From positions 1 to 39,259 of the forward strand of contig DYRD01000017.1 of the NCBI GenBank assembly GCA_020718905.1: 39,259 bases of DNA. The letters run 5' to 3'. The translations under genes and the position numbers were made by a program. Within the stretch, counting starts at the first letter, position 1, and the number at the start of each line of letters is the position of its first letter. The notes beneath the pieces were generated by a model. The model made no database searches. It was not told where the DNA came from and saw only the letters and a list, made by a program, of their open reading frames with translations. This document shows positions 8,615 through 17,384 of the stretch, piece by piece. This DNA is from Syntrophus aciditrophicus. GTDB taxonomy: Bacteria > Desulfobacterota > Syntrophia > Syntrophales > UBA8958.

Positions 8615-9670
8615 TTACAGTGAGAATGACGACCAACCCCGCAACCAGGATTGTAATCGCCGCAACCCCGCTTCCATGGAAACCTGAGGTTCGTATTTCA
8701 GTTCCCGCCGGGCGGCGCTAATGTCGAACCAGTGGGATGTTGCAAGCTCCTCCGCCAAAAATCGCGTCATCCGGGGCTCCCCCGGCAGTCTCAGGGCCGA
8801 GTGGATGCTTTCGATTACCGTCCCCATAAGGACGGCGCCGGATTTCGGGACGCCGCGGCGGATCGGCGGGATATCCGCCATGGACAGGATGCGGTTGACG
8901 AAATCCCAGAGATTGACCGGTTCGCCGTTGGATATGAAGTAGGCCCGGCCCGAGGCGTGCGGGTTGTCCCTCAGGGCGGTGGCGGCCAAAAGATGGGCCG
9001 CGGCGGCGTTGTCTATGTAAGTCGTATCGATGATGTTTTTCCCGGCCCCCACCCGCAGGATCTTGCCGGCCCTAGCCTGGGCGAGGATGCGGGGGATGAT
9101 CTGGGTGTCCCCCGGTCCCCAGATGAGGTGGGGGCGCAGGGAAACGGTCCGGAGGTCCGGGGAGGCGGCAGCAAGGACGAGGCGTTCCCCTTCCGCCTTC
9201 GTGGCCGTGTAGGGGGAGCGGGGACGGGATGGATAGGGAACGGCTTCATCGACCCCCGCCATGTCGGCAGCGCCGAAAACGACGCTGGCGGAACTGGTAA
9301 AAACGAGACGGCCCACACCGGCGCTTCCGCAGGCGGCAAGGATGTTTTTCGTCCCCAGAACATTGGGCCGTGAGAAGGATTCGTAGTCCCCCCACACGCC
9401 TGCCTTGGCCGCATTGTGAAAGACAACGGCGCAGCCGGCGCAGGCCCGTTTCACCGCCTCGGGGTCCGTCAGGTCCCCTCTGATCACCGTAACGCCCCGC
9501 TGCCGCAGCTCCGGATAGTCGCCCCGGGCGAAACTCCGCACGGCATAGCCGGCCGCCAGGAGGTGATCGACGATGGCCCGTCCGAGAAAACCGCCGCCCC
9601 CGGTTACGAGAGCCTGAGTGCCCGTCGTTTGGGAGGACCCGGTATTTAATTCTTCGTTCTTATGGGGCAT
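8615..9670 (-). CDS. oleD: OleD, NAD(P)H-dependent 2-alkyl-3-ketoacid reductase
   Basis: A 351-residue extended short-chain dehydrogenase of the 3-beta-HSD type. In olefin biosynthesis OleD reduces the 2-alkyl-3-ketoacid made by OleA to the 2-alkyl-3-hydroxyacid. The nucleotide-binding glycine motif is TGGGGFLG (residues 23-30). The catalytic Ser lies in FTSSASVVF (about 124-132) and the YxxxK pair is Y154/K158 in SPYTATKAE. The start overlaps the oleC stop by one base (TAATG), so the two are translationally coupled. It is the last gene of the ole operon. On sequence alone it could be another sterol-dehydrogenase-like SDR; the neighbours make OleD the clear choice. Confidence 0.85.
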   Translation of the reverse strand: MPHKNEELNTGSSQTTGTQALVTGGGGFLGRAIVDHLLAAGYAVRSFARGDYPELRQRGVTVIRGDLTDPEAVKRACAGCAVVFHNAAKAGVWGDYESFSRPNVLGTKNILAACGSAGVGRLVFTSSASVVFGAADMAGVDEAVPYPSRPRSPYTATKAEGERLVLAAASPDLRTVSLRPHLIWGPGDTQIIPRILAQARAGKILRVGAGKNIIDTTYIDNAAAAHLLAATALRDNPHASGRAYFISNGEPVNLWDFVNRILSMADIPPIRRGVPKSGAVLMGTVIESIHSALRLPGEPRMTRFLAEELATSHWFDISAARRELKYEPQVSMEAGLRRLQSWLRGWSSFSL

Positions 9671-11352
9671 TATTTACTATGCCGTTCCGCCGCCCAGACC
9701 GTAAGCTGCTCCCGAAAAATCTTGGCATTGTGGCGGATGTCCACGGGGAAGCCGGGATGGTAGAGCACCGTCTTGATCTCCCGGGTTATTGCGCCGGCCC
9801 GGGCAATCGCCAGGATTTCCTCAGTCAGCCGGTCATTATCCCCCCCTGCGTCTCCCTGTTTTAGTTCGATAATGATTACGGGCCGCTTACTTCCCGTCTC
9901 CCCGACACCAACAAGGGCTGAACGCCTCACCCGGGGATGAACGTTGAAGAGGGCCTCGCAAGGAATGGTAAAGAGAGTCCCCCGGGCCGTTTCCACCCGG
10001 TGGGCCTTCCGGCCGCAGAACCACAGCCGGCCCGTATCGTCCAGATAGCCGAGATCACCCATGCGATGCCAGATACCGCCGTCGGCGTCTTGCATCTTCG
10101 CCGCCCGGGTCGCCACGGGGTTCTGGAAATATTCCTTTGTCGCCACCGGCCCCTTGACGGCAATTTCCCCGATCTGTCCCCGGGGGACCCTTACGGCGTC
10201 TCTTACATTTGCAAGCGCCTTTTCGGTTATTTCGATAATCCGGATCTCCATCCCCGCCAGGGGCCGGCCGACGCAGGTACCGCCGCCCGCCTCGGAGATG
10301 CGCCTGGTTTCGGTCAATATCTCCTTGCTGTCGATATCGCTCACCGGCAGGACTTCCGTCGCCCCATAGGGGGTATGGATCCGGGCATCTTCAGGAAGCA
10401 TGAGGTGCATGGCTTCTATGAGATCGGCCCGCACCGGGGCTCCGGCGGTGATGATCCGCTTGACGGCGGGGAGTTTCGTCCCCGCCTCCGCCCCGTAGCG
10501 GGCCAGATTCTCCAGGAGCGCCGGAGACCCGTACATGCTTTTGCAATTATGCATCGCAAGGGCCTGAACGATTTTCTTCGGATCCGCCGCAGCGGGGTGG
10601 GTGGGATCCATATCGGGAATGACCGAGGTCATCCCCAGAACGACGTCAAAAAGGGAAAAGAGGGGGAAAGTAGCCAGATCGACCTCATCCTGTCCATAAC
10701 CGAAGTGGGTGCTCAGGTAACGTACCTGGGCGTCAAACATCCCGTGTTCGTAGACAACGCCCTTGGGAGGACCGGTGCTGCCCGTAGTAAAGAAAATGGC
10801 GGCCCGTTCATCGGAACGGGCGGGAACGGGGGGGAAAGGCCGCCAGGGGACCTTGCGAAAATCATTCAGGGTATATCCTCCCCAGAAAAAGCGCCGGCCG
10901 ACGGTTATCTTGACCTTTACAGTCGAAAATTTGCCCGGCGAGAGGACCCGGAGGACATGGGCCAGGGGGACGCCGATGAAGGCCTCGGCGCCAATGGAGG
11001 AAAGATTAGCCACGAGTTTCTGCCGGCCCATCCCCGGATCGATCATCACCGGGACCGCCCCCACCCGGAAGAGGGCAAAGGTGAGGGCAAACAATTCCAG
11101 CGACGGCCTGACCATGAGGATCGTTTTCACCCCCTTGGTAATCCCTACCTGCCGCAAGCCGTGGGCCAGGCGGTCCGTTTCCTCCTCCAACTCCCGGAAG
11201 GTCCAGTGGACAAAGGTCCCCGAACCGGGGGCGGCGGGACAGATAACGGCCTTCTTGTCCGGGAGGAGGCGGGCAACACGGGAGAGATGCTCACTGAGGT
11301 TCGAGGTGCCGTTTGGTTTTGAGGCGCCGACGGTTGTATCTTCCATTTCCAT
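9670..11352 (-). CDS. oleC: OleC, beta-lactone synthetase of the AMP-dependent ligase superfamily
   Basis: A 560-residue adenylate-forming enzyme. OleC uses ATP to close the 2-alkyl-3-hydroxyacid from OleD into a beta-lactone. Visible motifs are the phosphate loop FFTTGSTGPPKGVV (about residues 187-200), the GATEVLP adenine-binding stretch, and GDLGYLDDTGRLWFCGRKAHR with the ribose-binding Asp and hinge. PVMIDPGMG (101-109) is a sequence I associate with OleC rather than ordinary fatty-acyl-CoA ligases. The start overlaps the end of oleB by one base (TAATG), and its own stop overlaps oleD in the same way. The operon position between oleB and oleD supports the call. A generic acyl-CoA synthetase is the alternative. 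Confidence 0.87.
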   Translation of the reverse strand: MEMEDTTVGASKPNGTSNLSEHLSRVARLLPDKKAVICPAAPGSGTFVHWTFRELEEETDRLAHGLRQVGITKGVKTILMVRPSLELFALTFALFRVGAVPVMIDPGMGRQKLVANLSSIGAEAFIGVPLAHVLRVLSPGKFSTVKVKITVGRRFFWGGYTLNDFRKVPWRPFPPVPARSDERAAIFFTTGSTGPPKGVVYEHGMFDAQVRYLSTHFGYGQDEVDLATFPLFSLFDVVLGMTSVIPDMDPTHPAAADPKKIVQALAMHNCKSMYGSPALLENLARYGAEAGTKLPAVKRIITAGAPVRADLIEAMHLMLPEDARIHTPYGATEVLPVSDIDSKEILTETRRISEAGGGTCVGRPLAGMEIRIIEITEKALANVRDAVRVPRGQIGEIAVKGPVATKEYFQNPVATRAAKMQDADGGIWHRMGDLGYLDDTGRLWFCGRKAHRVETARGTLFTIPCEALFNVHPRVRRSALVGVGETGSKRPVIIIELKQGDAGGDNDRLTEEILAIARAGAITREIKTVLYHPGFPVDIRHNAKIFREQLTVWAAERHSK

Positions 11353-12299
11353 TATCCGGGAAGGGGATGTTTTTTCAAGAACCCCTTCATGAGGAAGACA
11401 ATCTTATCTCCCTCATCTTCGAGGAGATAATGCCCTCCCTGGGGAAAGGTGTGCACTGCCGCGGCGGGAAATCGCCGGCGCCATTCGGCGAAGATAATCG
11501 CGTCAAAGACAAAATCCTTCCTTCCCCAGCAGATCATCATGGGAATATGACCCAGGAGGTGCAGATGCTCGTCCGTCCACTTAACGAGGGCGTAGCTTTT
11601 GTCTGACTGATAAACGGGGATATCCTGGACGAAGCGCAAGGTGGCAATCCGGTTTTTCCAGGAGTTGTAAGGGGCCGTCAGGGCGGCTCTTACTTCCCCG
11701 GACATCGTCTTGACAACACCCAGATAGGTGGCGAAATAGGAAAAGGCGTTGAAACCCCGCACCAGCAGCGCCGGAATGGCCGGGAAATGGCGGATAAACG
11801 ATAGTTGCCAGGGCAATGATTTCGCTTGCGGAATGAGAAAGGCCCCGGTATTGAGCACGACAATGCGGCTGATCCGCTCCGGCCTACGGGCGGCACAGGC
11901 CATGCCGATCATCCCTCCCCAGTCGTGCACGATGAGGGTGACGTTGCTTTTCAGCCCTAAATGATCCAGGAGGGCCTCGAGGTTGTTGACATGGCTCGCC
12001 ACGGTGTAGTCAAAGGCCTCGTCCGTAGGCCGGGAGGAAAGCCCGCAGCCCACATGGTCCGGGACAATCACCCGGCAGGAGGGACTCAGGGCCTTGACAA
12101 TGTCACGGTAATAGAATGACCAGGTCGGATTGCCGTGGACGGCCACGACGGGCTCCCCCTGCCCTTCATCCAGGTAGTGATAATAATAACCGGGGGCCTT
12201 CAGCCAATGGCTCGCGAAAGGGTATAAACGCCGGTGCGGGGCGATATCAAAGTGGGGCGTGATCTTGTCTGCAACGGCATCGGCAGGTGCGAATTTCAT
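11352..12299 (-). CDS. oleB: OleB, beta-lactone decarboxylase (alpha/beta-hydrolase, haloalkane-dehalogenase-like)
   Basis: An alpha/beta-hydrolase that, in the Ole pathway, removes CO2 from the beta-lactone to give the cis-olefin. The oxyanion motif HGNPTWS (about residues 55-61) and the nucleophile elbow VHDWGG with Asp126 are typical of the dehalogenase-like group. The late catalytic His lies in FPQGGHYLLED. I chose ATG 12299 (MKFAPADAVADK, 315 residues), because the frame upstream to 12392 does not resemble the family and overlaps the previous gene's end and a repeat copy. An AGGA lies only two bases before this ATG, so initiation may be weak. It is not fused to OleC, unlike the OleBC fusions known in actinobacteria. 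Confidence 0.85.
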   Translation of the reverse strand: MKFAPADAVADKITPHFDIAPHRRLYPFASHWLKAPGYYYHYLDEGQGEPVVAVHGNPTWSFYYRDIVKALSPSCRVIVPDHVGCGLSSRPTDEAFDYTVASHVNNLEALLDHLGLKSNVTLIVHDWGGMIGMACAARRPERISRIVVLNTGAFLIPQAKSLPWQLSFIRHFPAIPALLVRGFNAFSYFATYLGVVKTMSGEVRAALTAPYNSWKNRIATLRFVQDIPVYQSDKSYALVKWTDEHLHLLGHIPMMICWGRKDFVFDAIIFAEWRRRFPAAAVHTFPQGGHYLLEDEGDKIVFLMKGFLKKHPLPG

Positions 12300-12369: not shown

Positions 12370-13254
12370 TCACAGATTCCGATAGAGCGCAAGGGAAACG
12401 GTTATCCCGGCGCCGACGGTCAGGAAAAGACAGTTTTCCGCCGCCCCAAAGCGCCCCGAACTCATGGCCCGCTCCAGGGCAAATCCGATTCCCGCCGTAT
12501 GGACATTCTCCAATTTGTCGGTCACATCAACGAGCTTTCCCTCCATACCCTGCTTCTTTTTGAGTTCGCCCAGAAACCCGGGCGGACTCTGAGACGGAAT
12601 GATCAGATCAACGTCCTCCATTTTGAGCGAAGCCTCTTTCAAGAAAGCGTCCAGATTTTCCAGGGCATACTTGGCGCATTCCTTTGCATATCCTTCCGCC
12701 TGGCTCATGACCAGGATGTTTCCCATCTTCCGTTTATGCTGCCTCCATTCGAGTCTACCCTGCATATCATCGATAAAGCGGCCCGCCGTTTCCGACTTGA
12801 AATGGAGAAAACCGCTGCCGTCATCGCCGCGGGACAGCAGGAAAGCGGCAGCGGCGGGGGTGAAGCTGTAACCAAGACTTTCACCGGGGACCGGATCGGT
12901 ATCGGCGGCAACGACCATGCCATGCTCAATCATCCCGGATTGGAGAAAGCCGTCCACGACCATCACGCCGGTAAGCATCCCGCAGCCCCCATTGGTCAAG
13001 TCAAAGGAAAAGGTGCTGCGATTGCCGGTAATGACCTCATTGGCGCCGATAGCCCGTTGAATGAAAGTGGCAATGGCGGGTTCCCCCATATGGCGATCAC
13101 GATAAATTCCGGCATTAATCAGGATACCCAGCAAATTCGGATCCAGCCGGGCGCTTTTCAAGCAGTCATTTGCCGCCTTTATTTCCATGTCGACGGACCC
13201 CCGACGGAAAAATCCCGGGGTACTTAAACCAAGAGCATCAATTATCGATCCCAT
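12370..13254 (-). CDS. Second OleA-like ketosynthase subunit with degenerate active site
   Basis: A shortened thiolase/KAS-III-fold protein (294 residues from ATG 13254; an in-frame ATG at 13272 is possible) directly after oleA and overlapping its end by 17 bases. A GGTGG before 13254 favours that start. It keeps Cys91 in FDLTNGGCGMLTG and the Glu-Pro pair E58-P59 that aligns with the catalytic Glu of OleA. The His position reads Ser221 (LIIPSQSPPG) and the Asn position reads His252 (LENVHTAG). The first about 60 residues of OleA are missing. It most likely pairs with the upstream OleA as a non-equivalent subunit, as in two-subunit OleA relatives such as LstA/LstB of lipstatin synthesis. That partnership is inference. 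Confidence 0.75.
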   Translation of the reverse strand: MGSIIDALGLSTPGFFRRGSVDMEIKAANDCLKSARLDPNLLGILINAGIYRDRHMGEPAIATFIQRAIGANEVITGNRSTFSFDLTNGGCGMLTGVMVVDGFLQSGMIEHGMVVAADTDPVPGESLGYSFTPAAAAFLLSRGDDGSGFLHFKSETAGRFIDDMQGRLEWRQHKRKMGNILVMSQAEGYAKECAKYALENLDAFLKEASLKMEDVDLIIPSQSPPGFLGELKKKQGMEGKLVDVTDKLENVHTAGIGFALERAMSSGRFGAAENCLFLTVGAGITVSLALYRNL

Positions 13255-14344
13255 ATCGATCCACCAAATCATCCATAGTAAATATTACGAAACCCATCGT
13301 CAAACCCGAAGCCAGGGCCATAAGCATCATCCTGTCTCCCGCCTGGAAACGCTTTTCATGAAGATGACGGTATAGGGCCAAGAAATGTGATGTCGACGCT
13401 GTATTCCCGTATTCCTGCAGATTCACGATGATGTTTTTTGCCCGCACCCCAAAATAATGGCCCAGCCGTTTGTCTCCCGAACGGATGGCCCGTATGGAGG
13501 TCTGGTGGGGAACGATATGATCGATATCGCCATATTCCAGACCTGATCCTTGCAATGCCCTCTCGGTAATAAAAGGCATATTGTCGATGGCCACATGATG
13601 AATCTTCCTGGCGTCCGTGGTCATTTGCGCCCCCGGGGCGTTGCGGCAGGGCCCGCCGATGCAGAGGTCACTATACTTGGCGAGACTGACAAAATTCGAT
13701 ATTTCTAACGTTGCCTTACCTTCCGCGGATCTTTCCATGATCACCGCGGCGCCGCAATCGCCGACGGTCAGGGAGGCCAATTGGCCGCTTAGCACGGTTT
13801 TGACCCGGGGAACGGCGTTACGGCTCGCAGAAGTGAGGTTTTCACCGGAGATGACCATGCCACGCTTGATGACACCCCGGCGGATAAAATCATCCATGAT
13901 CAAAACACCGGTCAGCATCCCGGCACAGGCATTGGCAATGTCGAAATTCAAGGCCCGAGACGCCCCGATGGCCTCCTTGACATACAGGGAAAAGGGCGGT
14001 TCCCACACAAAAGTCGTGCCATCCTTGTATTTGGTAATGGAGCAGCAGATGATCATCTCCAGGTCCTCGCCCTGATAACGCGAGTGGTTCAGACAGTCCC
14101 GGGCGGCGTTGAGGGTAAGGCCGTAGGAATCTTCCTTAGCCGAACATACCCGTCGCTCCTTGATGCCGGTGAGTCGCTCGAGATCGAATTTTCCCCACAT
14201 CTTTACCCCGCTCATCAGATCCTTCGTGAAGAGGCGCTGCTCAGGAACCTTGACGCCGATGCTCTCAAAACGGCTCGCAAAGGGGGGAGATGAAGATGGG
14301 GAAGGAACGGAGGACCTTTCTTCTTTTGCTTTTTCAGTCTTCAT
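13238..14344 (-). CDS. oleA: OleA, fatty acyl-CoA head-to-head condensing enzyme
   Basis: A thiolase-superfamily enzyme that joins two long fatty acyl-CoA chains by a non-decarboxylative Claisen condensation to a 2-alkyl-3-ketoacid, the first step to long-chain olefins. The catalytic triad is complete: Cys140 in FDIANACAGMLTG, His280 in HIVPHQTS and Asn314 in YGNTAST. Glu115 in FVWEPPFSLY matches the Glu base (E117 in Xanthomonas OleA). The spacing is close to that enzyme. ATG 14344 is chosen; a TTG at 14365 is the upstream alternative, and the GGAGG between them is far (about 14 bases) from the ATG. The N-terminus has a Ser/Pro-rich stretch before the fold. First gene of the ole operon, with a promoter at 14401-14429. 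Related KAS III enzymes are the alternative call. Confidence 0.82.
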   Translation of the reverse strand: MKTEKAKEERSSVPSPSSSPPFASRFESIGVKVPEQRLFTKDLMSGVKMWGKFDLERLTGIKERRVCSAKEDSYGLTLNAARDCLNHSRYQGEDLEMIICCSITKYKDGTTFVWEPPFSLYVKEAIGASRALNFDIANACAGMLTGVLIMDDFIRRGVIKRGMVISGENLTSASRNAVPRVKTVLSGQLASLTVGDCGAAVIMERSAEGKATLEISNFVSLAKYSDLCIGGPCRNAPGAQMTTDARKIHHVAIDNMPFITERALQGSGLEYGDIDHIVPHQTSIRAIRSGDKRLGHYFGVRAKNIIVNLQEYGNTASTSHFLALYRHLHEKRFQAGDRMMLMALASGLTMGFVIFTMDDLVDRYGIDN

Positions 14345-14400
14345 GATTCGTTTGGAAACCTCCAATCCAATAAGGAAGGTAAGAGGTTAAAATGCGTGAT

Positions 14401-14429
14401 AGTGTATTGAAAACATCCTTTCCTGTCAA
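14401..14429 (-). promoter_or_regulatory. Sigma-70 promoter of the ole operon
   Basis: On the minus strand TTGACA (14429-14424), a 17-base spacer and TACACT (14406-14401) stand about 57 bases before the oleA ATG. The -35 is perfect and the -10 matches four of six. Confidence 0.65.
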
Positions 14430-14453
14430 TGGGAAATACCTCCCAAATGGTCA

Positions 14454-14483
14454 TTGACACAAAGGGGCTTCATAGTATATAAT
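14454..14483 (+). promoter_or_regulatory. Consensus sigma-70 promoter of the phasin-LolA-barrel operon
   Basis: TTGACA (14454-14459), 18 bases, TATAAT (14478-14483): both boxes are exact consensus. The gene starts at 14532. The -35 and the base pair to its left form an 8-bp inverted repeat with the ole promoter's -35 (14424-14431 against 14452-14459). Confidence 0.75.
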
Positions 14484-14531
14484 GCTGATTATTATAAAGG
14501 ATTTCCATATCCGATGGGAAGGGAGAAAACG

Positions 14532-14912
14532 ATGCTGGATCTGGCAAAAAAAGCCGTGCTCATCGGCACCGGGATGGCCTTGGCGGCGACGGACAAAATT
14601 CAAGGCGTCGTTGACAATCTGGCGGAAAAAGGAGAAAATGCGGGCAAGGAGGCCCGGGAGGCCGTCCAAGGTCTTGTGAAAAAAACGCAAGAGACCCGCA
14701 ATGCCGTCGAAGGTGAAGCGGAGAAGGTTATGACGGATGTTACCGCTTTCTGGTTCTATGCCAGCTGGATGGACGAAATGGAGGATCAGGTGGAGAAAGT
14801 CGTAACCCTCCTCTTGAAAAAACTCCATATTCCGGAACGGCGGGAACTGGAAGACGTCAAGGCAAGGATTGAAAGGCTGGAGCAGGAACCGGGACAGGAT
14901 AATTGCGATTGA
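14532..14912 (+). CDS. Phasin-like small helical protein
   Basis: A 126-residue, charged, nearly all-helical protein starting at ATG 14532 (MLDLAKKAVLIGTGMALAAT), seven bases after GGGAG. An upstream in-frame ATG at 14520 and earlier codons lie in the promoter region and are not used. The layout is a short hydrophobic N-terminal helix, then long amphipathic helices, and a C-terminal LHIPERRELEDVKARIERLE. This last motif is characteristic of the polyhydroxyalkanoate granule-associated (phasin-like) family, where proteins coat hydrophobic inclusions or act in stress. No PHA synthase is in view. It is the first gene of a three-gene set transcribed away from the ole operon, so a coat for a hydrophobic product is possible. 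Confidence 0.65.
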   Translation: MLDLAKKAVLIGTGMALAATDKIQGVVDNLAEKGENAGKEAREAVQGLVKKTQETRNAVEGEAEKVMTDVTAFWFYASWMDEMEDQVEKVVTLLLKKLHIPERRELEDVKARIERLEQEPGQDNCD

Positions 14913-14941
14913 CCATTATCAGTTTATCAAAGGAGGCAGAT

Positions 14942-15754
14942 ATGGCAAAAAGGACTATTATCTGGATTATGGGCATTTTATTTCTTTTCAGCGCTTCCGT
15001 TGTCTCAGCGCAGATGACGGGAAGGCAGGTTATGGAAAAACAGAAGGAACGCCATAAGGTCAAGACGGAAATCGGCAATGAGGACATGATCCTGCAAGAC
15101 AAGAGCGGGGCCAAGGAAAACCGCCAGGTGGTACGCTATGCAAAGGAAGTCGGTAAGGACCTGCACCGCTACCTCGTGGTGTTTCTGAGCCCCGGCGACA
15201 TCCGCGGGACGGCGCTGCGGACCTGGGAGAAAAAAGGCAGAGACAACGATCAGTGGCTCTACCTGCCGGCAAAGAAGACGGATCAACGCATTGCCAAGGC
15301 GGGGAAGAGAAACTACTTCATGGGCACCGATTTTACCTATGAAGACCTGGAACCGGAAGACCTGGACAATTTCAACTACAACATCCTCCGGTCGGAGCAG
15401 TTCAGTCATGAAGGAAAGGCTTATGACTGTTATGTAATCGAGGCCCTTCCCGCCAATGACAAGAAAAAGCAGGAAACGGGCTATGCCAAGCGGATCATGT
15501 GGATCGAAAAAGTCAACCTGACCACGCTGAAGACTGATTTCTACGACCGGCGCGATAAGCACCAGAAAACCCAGCTCAACTACAAGTACGTGAACGTAGG
15601 CGGCACCGTCATGCGTCCCATGCAGACGATTATGAACAACATGGAAAAGAGCCACAAAACGGCGACAACCACGAGAGCGCGGAAAATAAATACCAATATG
15701 GCTGATTCCACCTTCACCGATTCATTTATCCTGTCAGGCAAGCATCTGGAGTAA
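14942..15754 (+). CDS. Periplasmic outer-membrane lipoprotein-sorting (LolA-like) protein
   Basis: A 270-residue exported protein. ATG 14942 is preceded by a perfect AAGGAGG, and residues 1-23 are a signal peptide ending near VVSAQ. The mature part matches the LolA-like outer-membrane lipoprotein-sorting family: MTGRQVMEKQKERHKVKTEI at the start, then strands such as YLVVFLSPGDIRGTALRTWE, DQWLYLPAKK and RIMWIEKVNLTTLKTDFYD. Such proteins have an open hydrophobic barrel fold that can hold a lipid chain. In many bacteria they are next to RND/MMPL exporters and barrels; here the barrel follows 15 bases downstream but no RND gene is present. It probably carries a lipid or helps the barrel. True LolA is shorter, so it is not called lolA. 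Confidence 0.72.
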   Translation: MAKRTIIWIMGILFLFSASVVSAQMTGRQVMEKQKERHKVKTEIGNEDMILQDKSGAKENRQVVRYAKEVGKDLHRYLVVFLSPGDIRGTALRTWEKKGRDNDQWLYLPAKKTDQRIAKAGKRNYFMGTDFTYEDLEPEDLDNFNYNILRSEQFSHEGKAYDCYVIEALPANDKKKQETGYAKRIMWIEKVNLTTLKTDFYDRRDKHQKTQLNYKYVNVGGTVMRPMQTIMNNMEKSHKTATTTRARKINTNMADSTFTDSFILSGKHLE

Positions 15755-15769
15755 AGGAGTCCGCTACCG

Positions 15770-17251
15770 ATGAGAATTAACCCGCTTCTCAAAAGTTTAG
15801 CCCTCCTGCTGGTCATATATCTCCTCTGCCCCCCTTTCACCTGGGTGCAGACGGACTACCGTTTACAGCAAGACGATCTGCTCAAGGAGATGGATAAGGC
15901 AGGGGAAGCCACACCGGAACAAAAGGGCCAGGGAAAGATCGTCCAGGCGGCAGCAAAGGAATCGACCGTACTCTCAAAGCTTGTGGACGACTTTCACGGC
16001 AGTTTACGCCTGCGGGGGATGCATTACTGGCAGAATCCTCCGGAACGGGAGGGGGCGGATACAAGAAACGACTTCGGCAATGCCCTTTTTAAATTCTCCG
16101 ACAAGATCAGTTACCAGAACTTCGCCTTTAATGTCGGGGGCTGGGTAGAGTACGGCAACGAGGAAAATACCTATTCCGGGACCTCTTTCAGCGAGTTCTG
16201 GCAGGACCTGGACCGGCGCCGGCGTATCCTGGATATGAGCGATCTATACGTCAACTACAGACGGGACACCTTTAATTTCCTGGTCGGGGAAAAGACCCTC
16301 ACCAACGGCATGTCCACGCTGTACCTGCCCTCAGACCGGATGCGGCCTCAGGATCTCAACGATCCCCTGGACGTCAAGGATCTCAACATCTGGCAGGCGC
16401 GAATGGATTACGACGTAGCCGAAGCAACGACACTGACCGCCGCCTTTCTCCCCGTGTATCAACCCCAGAAGACACCCAGTGAGACTTCACGCTGGATGGG
16501 GGAACGGAAGCAGGGTGATTCTACGGAATTCGACCTCTACGATGCGGGCAATGCCAATATGCAAGAAGACGTCGCCAAGGTCACGGATAACAACTTCGGC
16601 TATTTTGCCCGCTTCAAGAAGAAGGGGTTTCACGGCTGTGATTTCTTTGCCTCCTTCTATCACGGCCCCAATCCCTTCTATGTCGTTCGAGAAGTAACCG
16701 ATCCAGGAACCGGCCTACCCCAGCGCATCAAGGAAGTCGTCAAAGTGGACGACTACGCCGCCGGCTTCTCCACGACCTATGAAAGCTGGGAATTTCATGG
16801 GGAAGTGGTCTATAATTACGCTTACGACCGTAAGGATGACGACTATTTCAACTATGTGGCCGGTTTTACCTACACCTTCGATGATTTCGCCAAAAAGCTC
16901 TGGCTGGAGAAGATCGAGGTAACCGCCGAATATGCCAACGAGATCATCACCAGGTTTCAGAACGCCGCAACCTATGTCTCCAGTTCGAAGAAATCGCGCC
17001 TCGGCCGCAATGACATCCTGAGTCGCATCAATTTTGAGTACAGCAACAAGTTGTCTTTCCAGTTCGTCTGTAATTTTCTCCTCACCCGGGGAGAAGAAGG
17101 ACGGTTTCAAAGGTTGGAGGCCAAATATAAACTCCGGGACGGCCTGATTACAAAACTCGCGGGAGAGTTTTTCGGGGGGCAAAGCGACAGTACCTATGGC
17201 CGCTGGCAGCGCAACGACCGGCTCATCCTGGAGTTTGAATACGGTTTCTGA
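15770..17251 (+). CDS. Outer-membrane beta-barrel protein (DUF1302/porin-like)
   Basis: A 493-residue protein with an N-terminal hydrophobic signal segment (residues 1-27; ATG 15770, with AAGGAG upstream). A helical, Lys/Glu-rich linker follows (about 35-75), then many amphipathic strands with alternating hydrophobic residues, for example KISYQNFAFNVGGWVEYGN, DMSDLYVNYRRDTFNFLVGE and NYVAGFTYTFDDF. It ends in LILEFEYGF; the terminal Phe is the usual outer-membrane assembly signal. It resembles DUF1302-type barrels that pair with LolA-like proteins, consistent with the gene upstream. The transported substrate is unknown. It closes the three-gene set, and a palindromic repeat follows its stop within 7 bases. 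Confidence 0.68.
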   Translation: MRINPLLKSLALLLVIYLLCPPFTWVQTDYRLQQDDLLKEMDKAGEATPEQKGQGKIVQAAAKESTVLSKLVDDFHGSLRLRGMHYWQNPPEREGADTRNDFGNALFKFSDKISYQNFAFNVGGWVEYGNEENTYSGTSFSEFWQDLDRRRRILDMSDLYVNYRRDTFNFLVGEKTLTNGMSTLYLPSDRMRPQDLNDPLDVKDLNIWQARMDYDVAEATTLTAAFLPVYQPQKTPSETSRWMGERKQGDSTEFDLYDAGNANMQEDVAKVTDNNFGYFARFKKKGFHGCDFFASFYHGPNPFYVVREVTDPGTGLPQRIKEVVKVDDYAAGFSTTYESWEFHGEVVYNYAYDRKDDDYFNYVAGFTYTFDDFAKKLWLEKIEVTAEYANEIITRFQNAATYVSSSKKSRLGRNDILSRINFEYSNKLSFQFVCNFLLTRGEEGRFQRLEAKYKLRDGLITKLAGEFFGGQSDSTYGRWQRNDRLILEFEYGF

Positions 17252-17257
17252 AATCCC

Positions 17258-17384
17258 GCCGGCATCGTAAAAAGTCCGGATGCTGCGTTGCGCTGCATCC
17301 CTAGTCATTGCGGTGTACGACAAAAGTACGCCGCATTCCTCAGGACTTGTGCGCCTCGCCTGCGGATCTTTTTACGATGCCGGC
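17258..17384. repeat. Palindromic intergenic repeat (REP/MITE-like)
   Basis: A 127-bp element with perfect 17-bp inverted ends (17258-17274 and 17368-17384; GCCGGCATCGTAAAAAG against its complement) separates two convergent genes. Inside, GGATGC and GCATCC form a further small hairpin. Part of it recurs at 12328-12357. As a convergent-gene spacer it may act as a bidirectional terminator. The end sequence looks like repeats I associate with deltaproteobacterial genomes; that is memory, not a search. Confidence 0.7.

Follow-up and report, generated by a model that had tools for sequence, protein, structure and literature searches.

A LolA-like and beta-barrel gene set opposite the ole operon of an uncultured Syntrophales bacterium: candidate parts of a hydrophobe transporter

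AmeABCD of Castellaniella defragrans is an exporter of apolar monoterpenes composed of an HAE3 RND pump (AmeD), a DUF1302 barrel (AmeA), a DUF1329/LolA-superfamily protein (AmeB) and a YCF48-type protein (AmeC); cells deleted for it tolerate these compounds less well and accumulate more dye (PMC6394551). In P. putida, the DUF1302/DUF1329 pair PP_0765/PP_0766 is required for growth on Tween 20, a phenotype shared by the PP_2018/PP_2019 RND pump encoded at a separate locus (PMC10866462). HpnN and BstABC are RND-based carriers of hopanoids and sterols toward the outer membrane, with HpnN an HAE3 pump of known cargo that moves lipid outward (PMC10942540 and work cited there). Benzene transport has been proposed for the DUF1329/MMPL cluster of a benzene degrader (PMC13101534). 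In the literature searched, we found no paper linking ole to these transport genes and no transport system proposed for Ole-type long-chain hydrocarbons; the placement of very apolar long-chain olefins in bacterial membranes, and the identity of their carriers, are apparently unaddressed there.

We analysed a 39,259-nucleotide stretch of DNA (the window) from the metagenome bin of an uncultured Syntrophales bacterium (genome G000), in which a complete ole set (OleA, OleB, OleC and OleD together) faces three genes on the opposite strand. The features are:

8615..9670, minus strand: oleD, NAD-dependent epimerase/3beta-HSD-type dehydrogenase
9670..11352, minus strand: oleC, olefin beta-lactone synthetase homologue
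11352..12299, minus strand: oleB, alpha/beta hydrolase, beta-lactone decarboxylase candidate
12370..13272, minus strand: oleA2, KAS-III-like protein without the catalytic Cys and His; predicted to be an inactive partner for OleA1
13238..14365, minus strand: oleA1, KAS-III/thiolase, catalytic Cys, His and Asn present
14366..14531, no strand: divergent intergenic region between oleA1 and the phasin-like gene, probable shared promoter region, alignable across the genus
14532..14912, plus strand: phasin-family helical protein (PF05597), 126 aa; Pfam match, start by Shine-Dalgarno and relatives
14942..15754, plus strand: LolA-like periplasmic protein, 270 aa, Sec signal peptide; PF17131 and DUF1329 matches
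15770..17251, plus strand: probable outer-membrane beta-barrel, 493 aa, C-terminal Phe; distant DUF1302 relative

The earlier note on this DNA had described three genes transcribed away from oleA, and the corresponding plus-strand open reading frames are present. We chose the three starts by Shine-Dalgarno position and relatives. AGGGAG lies ahead of the phasin-like gene's ATG at 14532, where the ORF tool had chosen a TTG at 14454; AGGAGG precedes the ATG of the LolA-like gene, which leads into a signal peptide ending in SVVSA and followed by QM; and AAAGGAG lies upstream of the barrel gene's ATG. Because the gaps between the genes are only 29 nt (phasin-lolA) and 15 nt (lolA-barrel), the sequence suggests that they form one operon, diverging from the minus-strand oleA1-oleA2-oleB-oleC-oleD genes. 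The gene order is conserved in all family members with contigs spanning the site, and therefore the arrangement is not due to chance.

OleC scores under the NCBIfam equivalog cut-offs for olefin beta-lactone synthetase and far over that of PRK09274, and oleB probably starts at the ATG at 12299. OleA1 retains its Cys-His-Asn triad, while an alignment of four genomes (the window's, G002, G008 and G010) shows that OleA2 has Gly or Ala at the Cys position and a replaced His. As in the lipstatin synthase LstA/LstB (PMC12141560), two KAS-III-like proteins of about 23% identity are encoded side by side and one of them has the complete triad; by analogy with the heterodimer reported there, OleA1 may pair with an inactive OleA2 partner. 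Unlike at the LstA/LstB genes, oleB accompanies the oleA1/oleA2 pair here; because oleB is present, olefin rather than beta-lactone is the expected end product. Elsewhere in the same genome (contig C192, L077 6245-7990, minus strand), an open reading frame begins KAS-III-like and becomes PhaC-like from about residue 180, probably through an assembly mis-join of two genes.

The second plus-strand gene had been read earlier as encoding a periplasmic protein of a lipid-carrying fold, and the profile matches bear this out. The protein matches PF17131 (3.5e-46) and DUF1329 (PF07044; 5.7e-7), both above the Pfam cut-offs, and carries a Sec signal peptide. Solved structures related to it include 9tp6, 3bk5, 4z48 and 3buu (PDB), the last three of which are the relatives cited for AmeB's superfamily (PMC6394551). 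The third protein has no direct Pfam match. It is probably an outer-membrane barrel distantly related to DUF1302, because it has a signal peptide, ends in Phe and aligns in profile-profile comparison (hhalign, E 4.7e-32, 397 columns) with relatives from family f96, several of which reach the Pfam DUF1302 cut-off. Searching the PDB with the barrel profile returned nothing useful, and AlphaFold models of the barrel and LolA-like proteins, built with the window's sequence and 4-5 close relatives as input, were uninformative (mean pLDDT 28-32).

The set was also said to lack an RND pump. This is correct for the locus but not for the genome. The operon reads phasin-lolA-barrel in the window's genus, phasin-UbiB-phasin-lolA-barrel in G008 and phasin-UbiB-phasin-lolA-RND-barrel, opposite oleA, in G010. 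The pump of G010 combines MMPL with a cNMP-binding domain at its C-terminus; its best NCBIfam match is to the HAE3 model TIGR00921 (190 bits against a cut-off of 352), and it matches the HpnN and BstA models weakly. When the G010 pump was compared with 13 genomes, a close homologue was found in 9 of 9 family members bearing lolA and in neither of the two without it (G002 and G009, which lack both), and pump, lolA and barrel are thus directly observed to be inherited together. Contig C128 of the window's genome encodes a homologue with pieces about 62-74% identical, which rules out the reading that the pump is absent.

In most of the family's genomes the pump is unlinked to the module, a known layout, since the P. 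putida pair and its RND pump also sit apart. The tree places the pumps of the window's genus within the clade of module pumps. It shows two pump paralogues in the family: one occupies its place in the module of G010, and the other, which has an insertion, groups next to the in-module pump of G541. Judged from these sequences, the pump was moved or duplicated. The G000 pump gene (L069 840-3922, C128) shows a short tandem duplication as well as a frame change; because the pump genes of G001 and G007 are intact, an assembly error in the bin is likely, with recent damage as the alternative.

Comparison with the described systems suggests AmeABCD as the closest known kind. Both have an HAE3-type RND pump and a LolA-superfamily periplasmic protein, with a barrel that is of DUF1302 type in AmeABCD and probably a distant relative of that type here, and both are placed beside apolar-hydrocarbon genes. 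Unlike in AmeABCD, the pump is unlinked in the window's genus and has a cNMP-binding domain, the LolA-like component is of the short kind (PF17131), and the neighbouring genes make long-chain Ole products, whereas those of Ame degrade terpenes. Neither the three-gene operon nor the stretches that separate the parts in G010 hold a recognisable AmeC-like gene. Because the pump is unlinked and an AmeC-like gene is missing at the locus, the module would be better said to work like AmeABCD than to be one. The P. putida system shares the split between a barrel/LolA-like pair at one locus and an RND pump at another, but its phenotype is Tween 20 use, and no link to ole, phasin or UbiB is reported for it (PMC10866462). 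HpnN and BstABC share HAE3/MMPL-type pump genes that lie with a lipid biosynthesis cluster, as well as a proposed route from inner to outer membrane; however, BstB belongs to a phosphonate-binding-type family and BstC is not a barrel of the present kind.

We propose, with the case evenly balanced, that the LolA-like protein and the barrel belong to an Ame-like RND transporter of HAE3 type for hydrophobes, as its periplasmic and outer-membrane components respectively, and that this transporter moves Ole products from the inner to the outer membrane. In this scheme the Ole enzymes, working at the cytoplasmic face, would produce a long-chain ketone, beta-lactone or olefin that is very apolar. With the help of the phasin-like helical protein, which is the ole-side paralogue of UbiB's putative small partner, this product would be held or presented at the inner membrane, from which the RND pump (MMPL/RND with a C-terminal cNMP-binding domain, contig C128) would lift it. 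The LolA-like protein would then shield the product on its way across the periplasm, and the barrel would insert it in the outer membrane or let it pass through. We infer the recruitment of a hydrophobe transporter for Ole products, including its cargo, direction, joint complex and phasin role, from the AmeABCD and P. putida precedents and from the recurrent linkage to ole.

That linkage was read directly in two lineages. In the window's family, the three genes adjoin oleA in all seven genomes with contigs spanning the site (G000, G001, G003, G004, G005, G008 and G010); the G007 contig ends within oleA1, and a contig end splits the locus in G006. The family's exception is G002, which has oleA1, oleA2, oleB, oleC and oleD while module and pump are missing. 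An initial reading that G002 also lacks oleD was discarded, because the contig that carries oleC also has oleD, about 11 kb away. The second lineage is genus g181 of family f96, where the module lies beside ole in 4 of 4 genomes. The order in G252 is oleB-oleC-oleD-phasin-ubiB-crp-oleA, followed by convergent RND-lolA-lolA-barrel; in G461, G462 and G463 the contig pieces agree with this order, and a single lolA was recognised. Across f96, 4 genomes have both barrel and ole, 2 only the barrel, 1 only ole and 18 neither (p=0.005), a count that omits two weak matches (G446 OleC and G458 barrel). The crp gene of G252, encoding a Crp/Fnr-type regulator, lies between ubiB and oleA (L117 11829-12548); because of this gene and the cNMP-binding domain of the RND pumps, nucleotide control of the transport system is possible.

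We considered whether one block of ole and transport genes was transferred horizontally between the lineages and do not favour this, since the genes are arranged differently and neither the pump nor the LolA protein of G252 groups with its f1 counterparts, although the tree test is weak because of long branches. For the same two reasons, the sequences favour independent linkage of the module to ole in two lineages.

More broadly, 10 of 395 Desulfobacterota genomes match the barrel profile, 45 match OleC and 5 match both; this co-occurrence exceeds expectation when counted by genus (5/7 against 26/238, p=4e-4), although the counts are partly non-independent by descent. Among 155 genomes of the order, 21 have OleC, 17 the barrel and 8 both, all 8 in the window's family. 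OleC without the barrel occurs in G002 and twelve f14 genomes of the order. The earlier note had tied the set to ole as a hydrophobe-handling module and had held that finding it mostly without ole genes would count against this. The tie stands as linkage in two unrelated families and as the excess of joint occurrence. The observation named as counting against it holds in part: 9 of the 17 barrel genomes of the order have no OleC match (G007, because of the contig break, and 8 in other families), and most ole loci lack the module, which was not found at 37 other ole loci examined. The module occurs without ole in G027, G040, G471, G532, G541, G555, G556 and G041 of the order, in G410 and in G445 and G456 of f96; the trio does so in four genomes of family f59, and barrel or trio without ole was seen in over a dozen Desulfobacterota genomes. 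The order and phylum scans therefore rule out that the module generally belongs to ole. With ole lacking the module in G002 and the trio lacking ole elsewhere, ole does not need the module in every genome, nor is the module dedicated to ole wherever it occurs.

These distributions also bear on the proposed transport of Ole products. Because the module often occurs without ole, its cargo cannot be an Ole product only, and the module-less ole loci, together with the full ole set retained by G002, weigh against the proposal, as does the related P. putida pair, whose need in Tween 20 use could mean import (PMC10866462). A general envelope transporter of hydrophobes or lipids, or a solvent-efflux system, might instead lie beside ole by chance in both lineages. 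The ole-free trios have varied neighbours, and G129 carries ole and trio on separate contigs, as such a transporter would allow. We nevertheless regard it as unlikely: the two ole linkages are independent and differ in gene order, in both cases (G008/G010 and g181) the ole locus also holds the genome's only UbiB and its small partner, and we estimate the chance of ole/module proximity at about 1% per lineage for genomes of 2-4.5 Mb. At the opposite extreme, we suggest only tentatively a dedicated route for Ole hydrocarbons from cytoplasm to outer membrane, in which UbiB and its phasin-like partner(s) would act at the inner membrane to extract the product or hold it there, and the HAE3 RND pump, LolA-like carrier and DUF1302-type barrel would carry it outward; such a route would have come together next to ole on at least two independent occasions.

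The first gene of the operon had been taken to encode a granule-coat-like protein, a role that now appears doubtful. The protein exceeds the cut-off of PF05597 (1.4e-8, 35.3 bits against 28.8 in Pfam), and PhaC is found in most of the window's genus, as would be expected of a genuine PHA granule coat working apart from its neighbour genes. Against TIGR01837, however, it reaches 41.7 bits, far under the 94.7 required. In all 9 genomes for which the surroundings of a UbiB gene lying apart from ole were read (L162 4764-6799, L163-L168, L174 and L175), a phasin-like gene lies directly upstream of the genome's single UbiB gene; the window's genome has such a pair on contig C164. G009 and G027 have the pair and no PhaC match, and no phasin gene was found within the stretch around the PhaC ORF of G000. 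Consequently, we consider a granule coat improbable. The small phasin-family protein preceding UbiB is possibly a UbiB partner; separately, proteins of this position give weak BMFP (UbiK-type) matches.

UbiB proteins in yeast affect the distribution of the membrane lipid CoQ (PMC8346625). Given this effect, the constant UbiB neighbour and the genomes without PhaC, the ole-side phasin-like protein would be a membrane-lipid helper akin to the UbiB partner, rather than a granule coat. The ole-side and UbiB-side copies of the same genome are paralogues (33% identical), and an aromatic segment (TAFWFY or similar) is present in 6 of 6 aligned ole-side phasins of the second type and in none of the UbiB-side copies.

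Degradation of fatty acids and aromatics is common in the Syntrophales, which counts toward a system for uptake, where the barrel, LolA-like protein and pump would import long-chain fatty acids or oily substrates and ole would use some of the acyl-CoA. The Tween 20 requirement for PP_0765/PP_0766 (PMC10866462) and the benzene transport proposed for the DUF1329/MMPL cluster (PMC13101534) fit such uptake, but we judge it very improbable, as the raised dye accumulation of the AmeABCD deletion points to export (PMC6394551), HpnN carries its lipid outward, and the linkage to ole would be left without a reason.

Returning to the transport of Ole products, the recurrent locus of ole, UbiB/phasin and RND/LolA/barrel genes provides a concrete gene list for deletion. 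If the proposal is true, a UbiB-family lipid handler would be tied to a non-quinone lipid, with relevance to hydrocarbon production and export.

We also observed that a perfect 16-base inverted repeat (GCCGGCATCGTAAAAA ... TTTTTACGATGCCGGC) flanks a 127-base element at 17258-17384 of the window, between the barrel gene and an inositol phosphatase gene. An inner 15-base motif of this element occurs once more, in L123, and the element is probably a small mobile or repeat element.
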